Source: Gammaproteobacteria bacterium (GTDB lineage: Bacteria; Pseudomonadota; Gammaproteobacteria; Steroidobacterales; Woeseiaceae). Taken from it: DNA of 64,000 nt. The translations under genes were made by a program, and so were the position numbers. Under the pieces are notes generated by a model that ran no database searches, was not told the DNA's origin, and worked only from the letters and a program-made list of their open reading frames with translations. Location of the stretch: contig JAUIDP010000007.1 in the NCBI GenBank assembly GCA_030429005.1, forward strand, positions 1 through 64,000. Direction: 5' to 3'. Positions 14,767 to 21,459 of the stretch are shown here, one piece after another. Each line of letters opens with the position of its first letter. The stretch's first letter is position 1.

Positions 14767-15102
14767 TTAGTGAGAAGAGGAGGGGCGCGCGCCGCCAGTA
14801 CGTTTGATCGCGGTGCGATAGCCGCCATAGCCATCAGCCAGGAAGCGCGCAACCCGGCCCACAGTTGTGACACTGACGCCGGTCAGGTCATTGATTTGTC
14901 GGTAGGTCAGGCCGTTCTCGAGATAGTTGACAACCTGCCAGCGGTCGACGAGAGCCTGCAACTCCGCCGGGGTGCACAGGTCGCGCAGGAAATTGCGGCA
15001 CTCGTCGGCGTTGCGCAAGGACACCAGGGCCTGGCACAGAGCCGCTTCTGCAGCGAGTTGCCGGTCCTCGGTATCGGATCGATTGGGTTTCATGGCGGGC
15101 AT
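14767..15102 (-). CDS. TrpR-family (YerC/YecD-type) regulator, probable his operon repressor
   Basis: A 111-residue protein with the TrpR fold: helices around FLRDLCTPAELQALVDRWQVV and a helix-turn-helix LTYRQINDLTGVSVTTVGRVARFL. It belongs to the YerC/YecD branch rather than true tryptophan repressor. In Xanthomonadales a TrpR-like gene at this place has been proposed to regulate histidine genes; that role is inferred here from its position nine bases upstream of hisG and from the palindromic site before its own start. ATG 15102 and ATG 15093 are both possible starts. It would autoregulate together with the his genes. Confidence 0.85.
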   Translation of the reverse strand: MPAMKPNRSDTEDRQLAAEAALCQALVSLRNADECRNFLRDLCTPAELQALVDRWQVVNYLENGLTYRQINDLTGVSVTTVGRVARFLADGYGGYRTAIKRTGGARPSSSH

Positions 15103-15119
15103 GCCCTGTTTGTCTCAAT

Positions 15120-15145
15120 GTATTAACACGCTAATACACTAATAC
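15120..15145 (-). promoter_or_regulatory. Probable operator of the TrpR-like/his transcription unit
   Basis: GTATTA (15120-15125) and TAATAC (15132-15137) form a perfect 6-bp inverted repeat with a 6-base spacer, followed by another TAATAC at 15140-15145. It sits 18 bases upstream of the TrpR-like start, in the 73-base gap after leuB. Symmetric sites of about 18 bases are typical of TrpR-family dimers. No terminator is visible in this gap. Confidence 0.5.
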
Positions 15146-15175
15146 AGTCGATGCAAGCCCTTATTGCACGAATTG

Positions 15176-16234
15176 CTACAGGAATTTCAGTATTGCGGCG
15201 GTCATCGCGTCGGTTGACAGCGGGGTGCTGCCAGGTGCGGCAAGGTCGGCGGTCCTGGCCCCGGATGCGACCGCCTTTTCGATCGCATCTTCCAGCGCGG
15301 CAGCCTCTTCGTCCAGACCAAGACTGTGGCGCAGCAGCAAGGCGCAACTGGCCAGCATGCCACAGGGATTCGCGATGCCGCGCCCGGCGATATCCGGAGC
15401 CGAGCCGTGGATGGGCTCAAACAGACCGCGAGTACTGTCGCCAAGGGATGCGGAGGGCAGCATGCCGAGAGAGCCCGCCAGCATGGACGCTTCGTCCGTC
15501 AGAATATCGCCGAACATGTTCTCGGTCACGATGACGTCGAAGTCTTTTGGGCGGCTCAGGAGGTGCATGGCCGCTGCGTCAACGAGCAGGGTTTCCAGTT
15601 CGACCGCCGGATACTCGTCCGCCATGACGCTGTTCACAACCTCACGCCACAATCTCGAGGTAGCGAGCACGTTCGCTTTGTCCACCGAACACAGCCTGCC
15701 GCGCCTTGCGCCAGCCAGTTTCGCTGCCACGCGTACGATCCGCTCGATCTCGCCGCGGGTATACGTGCACAGGTCCGATGCTGCATCCGGGGTCTGCGTC
15801 TTTTCGCCGAAATAGATTCCGCCGGTCAGTTCGCGAACGACCAGCATGTCGACGCCATCAAGCAACTCGCCCTTCAGCGGCGATGCATCACGCAGCGAGG
15901 CGCTGACCTTGACCGGACGCAGGTTCGCATAGACCTCCAGGGACTCGCGTAGCCGCAACAGCCCCTGTTCCGGTCGCACGCTGGCGTTGGGGTCCGACCA
16001 CTTCGGACCGCCGACGGCGCCGAGCAGAACAGCATCACAATCGCGCAGGCTCGCGAGCGTATTGTCCGGCAAGGGTGAGCCGGTGGCATCGATTGCCGCG
16101 CCGCCAATCAGCTGTTGGTCATAGTGGAAACTGTGACCATACCGATCAGCAATGGCATCAAGGGCGCGCTGGCCACTGGCCAGGACCTCGGGGCCGATAC
16201 CGTCGCCCGGCAGCGTTACGATCAGGGCGTCCAC
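15176..16234 (-). CDS. leuB: 3-isopropylmalate dehydrogenase
   Basis: NAD-dependent oxidation and decarboxylation of 3-isopropylmalate, third leucine-specific step. The 352-residue protein shows [10 protein letters not shown], the [18 protein letters not shown] substrate-binding helix, [17 protein letters not shown], and the metal-binding [14 protein letters not shown], plus [13 protein letters not shown]. The start is GTG 16234, overlapping the leuD end by 13 bases. Last gene of ilvC-leuACDB. Confidence 0.97.
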
Positions 16235-16812
16235 GGACGATCCCTTTCAAAACCGGAAATTCGTTCTTCCTGCTGCAGCAGGAAGCCCAACTGATCTATG
16301 CCCTCGACAAGGCAGTAGCGGGCGAAATCGTCGATCGGAAAATGCACGGTCCTGCCGTCCGGCAGGCGCAGCGAGGCCTCCGGCACCGACACCTCGACGG
16401 CCACGCCGGGATTGTCGAGCAACCAGTCATGTACGTCGGCGTTCACAACGACCGGAAGCAAGCCGTTCTTCAACGCGTTGTTGCGAAAAATATCGGCAAT
16501 CTCGGTACTGATGACAGCCTGGATTCCGTAGTCGAGCAGGGCCCAGGGAGCATGTTCCCTCGAGGAACCGCAACCGAAATTGTTTCCTGCCACCAGGATA
16601 CGGCAGTCCTGCGCTGTCGCCTGGTTCAACGGGAAAGCCGGATTCGGACTGCCGTCCGCCTGGTAGCGCAGGTCGTAAAAAAGGTGTTCACCAAAGCCTT
16701 CGCGAGACGTCGCGGTCAGGAAACGTGCCGGAATGATCTGGTCGGTATCGATGTCCCGAGTCGGCAAAACTACGGTTCGGGACGAAATAGTTGTAACAGC
16801 CTGCAAAGTCAT
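16222..16812 (-). CDS. leuD: 3-isopropylmalate dehydratase, small subunit
   Basis: Swivel-domain subunit that joins LeuC to isomerise 2- to 3-isopropylmalate. The 196-residue protein has [31 protein letters not shown] and the C-terminal FLLQQEERI region. ATG 16812 overlaps the leuC stop by four bases (ATGA). A longer open frame upstream is only shadow over leuC. Confidence 0.97.
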
Positions 16813-18215
16813 TCCCCTGACAAGTATTCGCGTGGATCGGCAACCTTGCCGCGGATAGCGGAGGCGGCGGCGGTCATCGGACTGGCCAGGACAGTACGTG
16901 CACCGACACCCTGGCGGCCTTCGAAATTGCGATTGCTGGTGCTGACGCTGAGCTTGCCGCTCGCCACCGTGTCGCCGTTCATGCCGAGGCACATCGAGCA
17001 ACCGGATTCACGCCATTCGGCACCGGCCGCCAGGAACACTTCATCCAGCCCCAGCGCCTCGGCCTGCGCCTTGATCTGTTGCGAACCCGGCACCACCAGC
17101 ATCTGTACGCCGGCTGCAACCCTGCGACCCTGCAGGATCGATGCAGCTTGCTGCAGGTCTGACAGTCGTGCGTTCGTGCAACTGCCAACAAACACGACAT
17201 CGACATCGGTATCAGTCAGCGGCTTGCCCGGTTGCAATTGCATGTAGTCCAGCGCCTTCCGGAAACTGGAATCGCCACTGTTTTCGGGCACGGGGTCCTG
17301 GATACCGACAACCATGCCGGGATTGGTGCCGAAGGTCACCATGGGTTGCAAGCGGCCGGCATCGATGCTGACCTCCTTGTCGAATTCTGCGCCGGGTTCG
17401 CTCTGCAGTTCCCGCCACCGCGCGACGGCTGTGTCCCAGTCGGCGCCCTTCGGCGCCCTGGGTTTGCCATGCAGGTAGTCGAAAGTGACGTCATCCGGAG
17501 CGATCATGCCGGCGCGTGCGCCCGCCTCGATGGACATGTTGCAAACCGTCATGCGGGCATCCATTGACAGCGCCGCAATGGTTTCGCCGCGGTACTCGAT
17601 GACATGGCCTGTGCCGCCGTCAACGCCGATCCGGCCGATGATCTGCAGTATCAGGTCCTTGGCCGATACGCCGGCCTGCAGATGGCCGCTGACATTGATC
17701 GCCAGCGTGCGCGGCTTTCTCTGTAACAGGCACTGTGTCGCGAGAACATGGCCCACCTCGGTTGTGCCAATACCGAAGGCGAGGGCACCAAAAGCGCCAT
17801 GCGTGCTCGTGTGGCTGTCACCGCAGACGATGGTCTTGCCGGGCTGCGTGGCGCCCAGCTCGGGACCGATGATATGGACGATACCCCGATCGTCACTATC
17901 CTGGTCGAGCAACTCGATGCCGAATTCAGCGCAGTTCTCCTGCATCTGCGCTATCTGCAGTGCGGCGCTGCTGCCGATAATACGCGCATCCCGGAAACTC
18001 GCGCCCGGCAGGGTCGGTGTCGAGTGGTCCATCGTCGCCAGCGTCAGGTCGGGCCGGCGTACGCCGAGCTGCCGTTCGCGCAATACAGCAAAGGCCTGCG
18101 GCGTCGTAACTTCGTGGATCAGGTGCAGGTCTATGTAAAGTACCGCTGGCGTATCTTTCGTCTCTGCCGCAACGACGTGCGCATCCCAGACTTTCTCGAA
18201 CAGCGTGCGCGCCAT
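16809..18215 (-). CDS. leuC: 3-isopropylmalate dehydratase, large subunit
   Basis: Aconitase-family subunit carrying the 4Fe-4S cluster. The 468-residue protein has [13 protein letters not shown], the first cluster Cys in [10 protein letters not shown] and the other two in [10 protein letters not shown], with [10 protein letters not shown] near the end. ATG 18215 shares its A with the leuA stop (TGATG); an in-frame TTG one codon earlier is also possible. Confidence 0.97.
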
Positions 18216-19780
18216 CAAATCGTCGCTCGCGACAATTTCTCGCGCGCCGGCTTGTCGTCGCCGTCGAGCTGTTGCCGGCGAAGTATCCGGTTTGTAACTT
18301 CGAGACAGGCACGCGCTGCCGCCTCGACGATGTCAACACTTGCGCCGGTCGCGCGATATGAATTGCCTTCGTACTCAACGGTGATCGTGACTTCGCCCTG
18401 TGCATCCTCGCCAACCGACGCACTGTGCAGGTCGAACTTGTGCAGCGTCACGTGAATTCCGGTGAGTTGGGCGAGCGCTGCGAACGCTGCGGCAACCGGG
18501 CCGTCACCTGTCGCCGTTGCCGCGACCGGTTCGCCGGATTCATTCTGCAATGTCACGGTTGCTGACGCCGGCGCATCCGAGTCCGTTTGCACTTCCATAC
18601 GGTGCAACGCCCATGGCCCGGTTGATTTGCCGTCCACGTTCATGATGATCGCTTCGATGTCACCGTCGTAGACATCTTTCTTCTTGTCAGCCAGTTTCTT
18701 GAATTCCTGGAAGGCCCGGTTGGTCTCGAACTCATCGAGCTCAAACCCCAGTTCGGCTACCCGATCACGGAATGCGTGCCGGCCGCTATGCTTGCCAAGC
18801 ACCAGGCTCGATCGTGCGAGCCCCACGTCTTCCGGGCGCATGATTTCGTAAGTCGAGCTGTGCTGCAGCATGCCGTGTTGATGAATACCGGCTTCGTGGG
18901 CAAACGCGTTCTCGCCGACAACGGCCTTGTTACGCGGTATCTGCATGCCGGTGATGCTGGCAACCAGGCGCGACGCCGGGTACAGGCGCGTCGAATCAAC
19001 ACCGGTTTCCAGGTTGAAGAACTCGGCGCGGGTCTTCAGCGCCATGACCACCTCTTCGAGACTGCAGTTGCCGGCGCGCTCACCAATGCCATTGATCGTA
19101 CATTCGACCTGGCGGGCGCCGGCACGGACCGCGGCCAGGCTGTTGGCGACCGCCATGCCGAGATCGTCATGGCAGTGCACGCTGAGTGTCACCGCATCAA
19201 TGCCGGCGACGTGCTGTTTCAGGTAGCGAAACAATTCGTCGAACTCGGCGGGCACCGTGTAACCGACCGTATCAGGAATATTGATCGTCGTGGCGCCGGC
19301 CTCGATGGCGGCGGAAACAACATCGGCCAGGTAGGGGAGTTCCGTGCGCGAGGCGTCCTCAGGCGAAAACTCGACATCGTCACAGAGCTCGCGGGCCATG
19401 CGTACGGCGCCCTGTGCGCTGCGGATAATCTCCTCCTTGGCCATGCGCAACTTGTGTTCACGATGTATTTCGCTCGTGGCAACGAAGACATGAATGCGAT
19501 GCCGTTCAGCGCCCTTGACAGCGGCATGCACTTTTTCGATGTCGCCGGGATTGCAGCGCGCAAGTCCACAAATAACCGGACCGAAGTTTTCGTCGGCGAT
19601 GGCTTTGACAGACTCGAAATCGCCCGGCGAAGCGGCCGGGAATCCCGCTTCGATAATATCGACGTTGAGCTCGGCAAGAAGCTTGGCAATGCGCAGTTTC
19701 TCACGCAGCGTCATGCTGCAGCCTGGCGCCTGTTCACCATCGCGTAACGTCGTGTCAAATATCCGAACGCGGTCACTCAT
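18215..19780 (-). CDS. leuA: 2-isopropylmalate synthase
   Basis: Condenses acetyl-CoA with 2-ketoisovalerate, committing carbon to leucine. The 521-residue protein has [16 protein letters not shown], the metal-binding [33 protein letters not shown] and [11 protein letters not shown], and a C-terminal LeuA dimer/regulatory domain (about 390-520) that normally mediates leucine feedback. The ATG at 19780 has AGGAG about nine bases upstream. It is 21 bases downstream of ilvC. Confidence 0.97.
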
Positions 19781-19801: not shown

Positions 19802-20788
19802 TTACTCCTGCAACCAGTCCATTCGCCCACGCAGGTCCGCACCCACCTTCTCGATCGGGTGCTCCAGGTCGGCGTTCATTTTCTTGCGGAACTCCGGCAT
19901 GCCAGCTTCATTCTCGGCTATCCAGTTGCGTGCGAAAGTTCCGTCCTGGATTTCTGCCAGGATCGACTTCATCGCCGCCCGGGCACGATCATCGACAACC
20001 CGCGGGCCGCTGACGAGGTCGCCCCAGGCGGCTGTATCGCTGATGAACTTGTGCATCTTGCGCAAGCCGCCCTCGTGCAGGAGGTCCACGATCAACTTCA
20101 ATTCGTGCATGACTTCGTAGTAGGCGACTTCCGGCTGGTAGCCGGCTTCGACCAGTGTCTCGAAACCCGCGACAATGAGTTCGGTGGTGCCACCACAGAG
20201 CACTGCCTGCTCGCCAAACAGGTCGGTCTCGGTTTCCTCGGCAAAGGTCGTTTCGATAACGCCGGCACGCGCGCCACCGATACCGGAAGCGTAGGCCAGC
20301 GCCATTTTCAGGGCGTTGCCCGTTACATCGGCGTGCACGGCGACCAGGCAGGGCACGCCATGGCCTTCCTCGTACTGGCGCCGGACCAGGCCGCCGGGTC
20401 CCTTCGGCGCGATCAGGGCGACGTCCAGGTCGGCACGCGGTTCGATTTGCTTGAAGTGCACAGCGAAACCGTGCGCGAACAGCAGCATGGCGCCTTCATC
20501 GATGGCGTCGATGACCGACGCATAAAGTGCTTTTTGAACCATATCCGGCGTCAGGAACGCGACGATTGCCGCGCCTCGCACCGCATCGACCGGCTCCATA
20601 ACCTTGAGGCCGTCGGCCTCCGCTTTGGCCCAGCTGGCGCCGTCGCGACGCAAGCCGACCACGACATCGAAGCCGCTGTCTTTCAAATTCAACGCATGCG
20701 CGCGGCCCTGGCTGCCGTAGCCGAGGATCGTGATCTGGCGATCGAGAAGAGTGGAGGTGTCAACATCTGATTCTGAGTACATCTGCAT
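19802..20788 (-). CDS. ilvC: Ketol-acid reductoisomerase (class I)
   Basis: NADPH-dependent conversion of acetolactate to dihydroxy-isovalerate. At 328 residues it is the short class I form. Motifs are the Rossmann [38 protein letters not shown], the metal site [18 protein letters not shown], and [18 protein letters not shown] 20788 is preceded by AAGGAA seven bases upstream. First structural gene of the ilvC-leuACDB operon, about 40 bases after the attenuator terminator, so pathway flux to valine and leucine is probably set by the leader. Confidence 0.98.
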
Positions 20789-20833: not shown

Positions 20834-20869
20834 AAAAAAAACCCCGCTTGCCAAATGGGAAGCGGGGTT
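20834..20869 (-). terminator. Attenuator terminator of the ilvC-leuACDB operon
   Basis: On the minus strand a perfect 10-bp stem (20869-20860 with 20849-20840, core CCCCGCTT/AAGCGGGG) with a 10-base loop runs into a T-tract. It lies between the leader peptide stop (20896) and ilvC. Its 5' arm can alternatively pair with AGCGGG in the last leader codons (20904-20899), giving the antiterminator of a ribosome-controlled attenuator. Confidence 0.85.
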
Positions 20870-20895
20870 CGCGAATTCTTGTTCCAGGATACGCG

Positions 20896-20985
20896 CTACC
20901 CGCTCTTGCTCCGGAGAAGGAGAAGCAGTACAAGCGCAGAGCCCTGAGTCAGTGTTCCTGGCTGCTGTTTCTGTTCAGGTTTCAT
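20896..20985 (-). CDS. ilv-leu leader peptide (29 residues)
   Basis: A short frame from ATG 20985 to TAG 20896 contains ALVLLLLL at residues 17-24: CTT GTA CTG CTT CTC CTT CTC. A run of six Leu codons and one Val just before a terminator hairpin is the hallmark of leucine/valine attenuation leaders in proteobacteria. Stalling on Leu codons when charged leucine tRNA is scarce would leave AGCGGG (20904-20899) free to block the terminator. The start is about two bases from the predicted transcription start, so the peptide may be translated from a leaderless end; no Shine-Dalgarno is seen. Previously known systems of this type include E. coli leuL and ilvL; this one is not homologous in detail. 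Confidence 0.8.
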   Translation of the reverse strand: MKPEQKQQPGTLTQGSALVLLLLLRSKSG

Positions 20986-20993
20986 AGTGGCGC

Positions 20994-21022
20994 ATGATCT
21001 GGCAACGACCCGAGGATGTCAA
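20994..21022 (-). promoter_or_regulatory. Promoter of the ilvC-leuACDB leader
   Basis: Minus-strand TTGACA (21022-21017, perfect -35), 17-base spacer, GATCAT (20999-20994, four of six). Transcription should begin near 20987, just before the leader peptide ATG. Confidence 0.65.
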
Positions 21023-21164
21023 CCACTGCAAAATCAGTTACTTGTGTTACTAACCAGCTATACGCTGCCAATCTCGCCGGCAAACAAAAAAGTGACGCCA
21101 TTACCCGAATCTTATGTTGCTGACGGGCTAGTCAAACGCGAAGCATGTGTTATTCTCTGGGTCA

Positions 21165-21263: not shown

Positions 21264-21459
21264 CATAGAAAAAATTTTTTCGCCGCGGCGACAGTGGAGA
21301 GGGTCGCGTGCAGAAGTGCAATTTGCCGTTCGGCAGATGCGCTTATCATTTTGTGCGTTTGTCGATTCGTGCAGTTTTTGAATGAATCGATGCCGCGCAT
21401 CCCTCTCCGCACAATAATTTTGACTACATAGTAATTTGACCTCGTTAGAAGGAGCGTTC
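21264..21459. other. Non-coding stretch between the ilvC and TonB operons
   Basis: With the leader elements before it, this forms a 474-base divergent region (20986-21459). It holds two adjacent perfect palindromes, A6T6 at 21269-21280 and TCGCCGCGGCGA at 21280-21291, and an inverted repeat TCGATT/AATCGA near 21362-21391. No confident promoter for the plus-strand operon was found, and the small open frames here look spurious. Confidence 0.4.

Follow-up and report, generated by a model that had tools for sequence, protein, structure and literature searches.

Leader-peptide attenuators of the leuL type control the leucine operons of enterobacteria, in which the control codon is the rare CTA. 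A survey of proteobacterial attenuators published in 2004 by Vitreschak and colleagues reportedly covers the ilvC operons of Xanthomonas. In Sinorhizobium meliloti, the trpL attenuator RNA (rnTrpL) begins directly with the AUG of its leader ORF, translation has been observed by ribosome profiling, and trans functions of both the RNA and the peptide are known (PMC7298713, PMC10117765). Leaderless leader peptides for leucine or the branched-chain amino acids, with mapped start sites, are described in Streptomyces lividans (leuL1, leuL2 and ilvL; PMC8079986), and Streptomyces trpL is a leaderless attenuator leader as well. Zheng and colleagues recognize leaderless genes by a -10-like signal lying about 10-12 bp ahead of the start codon, and report that in Gammaproteobacteria such genes are mostly found in Xanthomonadales and Legionellales (PMC3160421). 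Our literature search, which mostly excluded subscription papers, yielded no description of leaderless attenuator leaders in Gammaproteobacteria; it returned nothing on Woeseia combined with leaderless, and nothing useful on mapped Xanthomonas start sites.

We analyzed a stretch of 64,000 nucleotides of a Woeseiaceae contig (the window), on the minus strand of which a promoter, a leader ORF of 29 codons, a terminator made of a 10-bp stem and a T run, and the genes ilvC-leuACDB follow one another. The promoter (20994-21022) consists of TTGACA (21022-21017) and GATCAT (20999-20994), separated by 17 nt, a spacing that is the same in 35 aligned promoters, and it is the only promoter-like site in 1.1 kb. 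The leader ORF (20896-20985), which encodes MKPEQKQQPGTLTQGSALVLLLLLRSKSG, has its ATG at 20985, 8 nt past the -10 hexamer and without a Shine-Dalgarno sequence; its end reads ALVLLLLLRSKSG, followed by the stop codon TAG (20898-20896). The terminator comprises a 5' arm, AACCCCGCTT (20860-20869), and a 3' arm, AAGCGGGGTT (20849-20840), which with the T run occupies 20834-20849. When the minus strand was read again, the coordinates of the initial annotation proved correct. Since the terminator lies between the sole predicted promoter and ilvC, and the gene upstream of the leader (at 21436) is divergent, there is no other transcript that it would serve to end. The leader RNA folded better than 198 of 200 shuffled sequences (z -2.3).

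All five genes downstream were identified by curated family matches on the minus strand: ilvC (ketol-acid reductoisomerase, 19802-20788, with its ATG at 20788 and a Shine-Dalgarno site), leuA (2-isopropylmalate synthase, 18215-19780), leuC and leuD (large and small subunits of 3-isopropylmalate dehydratase, 16809-18218 and 16222-16812) and leuB (3-isopropylmalate dehydrogenase, 15176-16234). No minus-strand terminator-like site was found at the junctions between these genes, and the order ilvC-leuACDB is kept in Woeseiaceae and in most of the Steroidobacteraceae examined. Beyond leuB, the interval leading to a YerC/TrpR-like gene and then hisG (15102-15176) contains a palindrome, TGTATTAGCGTGTTAATACA, a possible operator, and the his genes apparently begin there under their own control.

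Rfam returned no match in the window at the gathering score, hence no known leader or riboswitch, and none of its permissive matches was a leucine leader. IlvC was present in 56 of 60 related genomes and in 80 named loci, and the upstream region could be aligned in 36 Woeseiaceae loci, the window included. The start codon, the run of Leu codons, GCGGGTA and the terminator were present in all 36; the promoter was present in 35, namely wherever the contig extends that far. An RNA model built from these 36 loci matched every one of the 16 genomes sampled from the genus, and among genomes from other Woeseiaceae genera it matched 6 of 8. Inspection of ten new Woeseiaceae sequences revealed an identical layout, so that with the aligned loci all parts of the attenuator recur in 45 other Woeseiaceae sequences. 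The conservation of the Leu-codon run and terminator in close relatives, on which the initial annotation had made its proposal depend, is thus observed. Matches outside Woeseiaceae were weak. One of the loci picked up by the model, in a genome from another family of the same order (G040), is a separate Leu-rich leader with a CCCCGC terminator, located directly before leuA (L146 116-280, G040:C1).

Two layers of selection can be distinguished in the leader ORF. Codon -8 (counting the stop as -1; seven before the stop) encodes Leu in all 35 frames, as CTT, CTC or CTA, with an entropy of 1.18 bits at the third base and none at the first two, and the two codons preceding it encode Leu in 30 and 31 of the 35 frames. 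Such third-base variation with a fixed amino acid reflects selection on the peptide code. The end of the leader behaves differently: GCGGGTAG hardly varies and its synonymous sites have drifted very little, the last codon is GGG in 35/35 frames (this codon makes up 8% of Gly codons in the window genes) and the stop is TAG in 33/35. This near-invariance would be expected if GCGGGTAG acted as RNA and was thus under selection at that level. In one locus (L011), a frame shift, possibly a sequencing error in a G run, leads to an earlier stop, yet GCGGGTAG is kept. Elsewhere the leaders drift in length (20 to 36 codons) and in N-terminal sequence.

Leucine accounts for 26% of leader residues, compared with 10% in nine window proteins, and this enrichment, together with the conserved Leu codon, makes the leader a short ORF rich in codons for the amino acid that the operon produces. 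The idea that valine is sensed too is not supported, as Val is not enriched (5.3% vs 7.8% in the same proteins). The codon CTT represents 43% of leader Leu codons vs 8% in the nine window genes. This preference for CTT/CTC could be explained by RNA pairing as well as by tRNA choice, because in most sequences a pause hairpin (segments 1:2, 20892-20937) is predicted between the Leu codons and GGGAGGCAG, which lies immediately downstream of them; this hairpin involves the stretch just before and around AGCGGG and was absent from the initial annotation. In this hairpin 76% of cells are paired, and its covariation score is weak, being equalled by 28 of 500 shuffles.

Pairing in the terminator stem is kept in 97.7% of cells vs 96.3% in shuffles, none of which (0/500) scored as high; there are 5 double-change cells, and the compensatory changes exceed those of all or nearly all shuffles. 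The competing structure involves segment 2, GAGCGGG (20899-20905), which overlaps the last leader codons and contains the AGCGGG at 20904-20899, and the 5' arm of the terminator, which doubles as the 3' strand of the antiterminator. When the 3' arm of the terminator was withheld, the GCGGG:CCCGC pairing had a probability of about 1 in 36/36 sequences, and the mean energies were -15.7 kcal/mol for the antiterminator and -18.8 kcal/mol for the terminator. The alternative pairing of AGCGGG with the terminator arm had been described as a 6-bp helix; the predicted pairing is longer, usually including an inner GCG/CGC helix (CGCG/CGCG) and a small UCC/GGA helix. The GCGGG:CCCGC pairing is possible in all 36 sequences and would exclude the terminator. 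Its outer pairs are invariant, which leaves covariation uninformative, and covariation in the inner helices was not above that of shuffles. When the middle was shuffled, the outer pairing mostly survived, so the two conserved blocks are by themselves enough to produce it. The case for the antiterminator is thus one of conservation and energetics. Judging from usual footprints, a ribosome on the Leu codons would leave GCGGG just clear, and one at the stop codon would cover it.

The start codon is 6-8 nt past the -10 hexamer in 35/35 aligned Woeseiaceae promoters and, on visual inspection, in the ten further genomes too, giving 45/45. A distance of this size (6-9 nt) is accepted in silico as a signature of leaderless genes (PMC3160421). 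Two leader ORFs (L024 and L137) apparently begin with GTG at this same leaderless position. No Shine-Dalgarno pairing was found at the leader starts, whereas ilvC has one: the mean anti-SD energy was -0.6 kcal/mol for the leaders vs -5.3 kcal/mol for ilvC in the same genomes. The message thus appears to start on the start codon or only a few bases away from it, and the constant distance strengthens the suggestion that the leader peptide may be translated without a ribosome site. That this would be unusual for an attenuator needs to be qualified in view of the cases in Sinorhizobium (PMC7298713, PMC10117765) and Streptomyces (PMC8079986). Outside Woeseiaceae the short distance is not universal, since it is shared by some Steroidobacteraceae leaders, while in others 20-45 nt separate the -10 from the ATG.

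A second case is provided by the trpE operons of Woeseiaceae, which are located on other contigs and preceded by Trp-rich leaders (e.g. MNAQTINNWWWLSLNEGAAG) and terminators (L159-L164 and L171-L197; in the window's own genome, G000:C35 upstream of 22808). In all 27 of these leaders that were scored, the window's own genome included, the start codon is 6-8 nt past the -10; three trpE loci had no leader or no start recognized by the script and two had no promoter score. As two unlinked attenuators, for leucine and for tryptophan, share this apparently leaderless arrangement, a coincidence is unlikely. No attenuator was found ahead of ilvB in the six loci inspected (L147-L152); the region upstream of this gene contains a conserved GAGTATTGCAATGCA block, and no leader peptide was found there.

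Upstream of the -35 hexamer lies another conserved element, TTAGTAACACAAGTAACTGAT (21033-21053, minus strand), a direct repeat GTAAC-N4-GTAAC that precedes the -35 of ilvC leaders by about 14 nt. Nearly all relatives have it at the ilvC leader promoter, and the window contains a single match. It is a possible activator or repressor site specific to the ilvC operon. We considered it as a marker of a wider regulon, and rejected this as there is mostly one match per genome, at the ilvC leader promoter. An extra match upstream of trpE in one genome (G010) lies within the apparent last codons (YQL and stop) of the preceding gene, which are similar in L161 and L164, and was taken as due to chance.

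From the anatomy of the locus, its conservation, the coding and RNA constraints, the fold energetics, the order of the operon, the fixed distance between promoter and start codon and the absence of a Shine-Dalgarno sequence, we infer the start site, termination, the response to leucine and initiation on the 5' end. RNA polymerase would start on the leader ATG itself or no more than about three bases away, and a ribosome would load on the 5' end. With plentiful leucine, it would reach the UAG and cover GCGGG, so that CCCCGC and the downstream GCGGGG would form the terminator. If charged leucyl-tRNA were short, the ribosome would stall on the Leu codons and open the pause hairpin; the freed GCGGG would then pair with CCCGC, with the help of the inner CGCG helix, blocking the terminator and allowing transcription of ilvC-leuACDB. 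In the absence of a ribosome, segment 2 would be hidden by the pause hairpin and the terminator would form.

We put at about 0.9 the probability that ilvC-leuACDB is governed by a leucine attenuator under ribosome control, with a leader peptide made from a leaderless or near-leaderless message; the conserved Leu run and terminator and the preserved gene order support the attenuator reading that was proposed initially. The transcript of an otherwise ordinary leucine attenuator might start further upstream and have a 5' untranslated region, the proximity of ATG and -10 being incidental. Several Steroidobacteraceae relatives do have 20-45 nt between the two, and the start site of the leader is placed from sequence. 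Yet the constant distance in 45/45 Woeseiaceae and 27/27 trp leaders, the lack of a Shine-Dalgarno sequence where ilvC has one, and the fact that no second promoter is predicted near the leader make an upstream start improbable.

Still less probable is control of the terminator by a factor other than the ribosome, such as a protein or a tRNA binding the leader RNA. The conserved 5' box, the strongly conserved RNA blocks and the failure of Rfam to find anything known would fit with such a factor, but Rfam also gave no T-box or riboswitch match, and in-frame Leu codons vary synonymously while the flanking peptide drifts in length and content. Finally, neither short ORFs nor terminator-like sites are rare (a simple scan expects 1.4 of the latter in this region), so that a chance ORF before a constitutive partial terminator could be envisaged; that the frame, the codons, the position of the stop and the terminator are all conserved in more than 40 genomes reduces its likelihood to almost nil.

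The probably leaderless, ribosome-controlled attenuator of ilvC-leuACDB represents a clean, deeply conserved case in Gammaproteobacteria, in which leaderless initiation and transcription attenuation appear to be combined in two operons of one family. It opens to testing the question whether attenuators owe the necessary timing between ribosome and polymerase to leaderless loading, and the RNA model is available to annotate a leucine switch missed by Rfam. We are somewhat inclined to think that the Woeseiaceae attenuators of unlinked leu and trp operons form a class without 5' untranslated region, so that loading of the first ribosome has to take place at the extreme 5' end behind RNA polymerase and leaderless initiation belongs by design to the timing of the switch.

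The leaderless attenuator layout is known from a few other bacteria but, as far as we found, not from this group, of which the present case is a well-supported example. The S. meliloti trpL leader belongs to an alphaproteobacterium and senses Trp, whereas the Woeseiaceae leader would sense Leu. Those of S. lividans are from Actinobacteria, have 12-15 residues and lie upstream of leuA, leuS or ilvBHC, and leuL1 lacks a typical terminator (PMC8079986). The ilvC leaders of Steroidobacteraceae and Stenotrophomonas (L043-L066, L099 and L101) are rich in Leu, Val and Ile, and resemble the Woeseiaceae leader in having GCGGG near their end and a CCCCGC terminator; several are also near-leaderless and some have 20-45 nt before the ATG, their sequence outside the core differs from that of the Woeseiaceae leaders, and in Stenotrophomonas leuA is further from ilvC. 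With the enterobacterial leuL attenuators, the Woeseiaceae leader shares a Leu-rich ORF, a terminator stem, predicted pause and antiterminator stems and the proposed logic of ribosome stalling; it differs from them by its sequence, by an operon in which ilvC comes first, by control codons that are mostly CTT or CTC and by the absence of a Shine-Dalgarno sequence and, apparently, of a 5' untranslated region.
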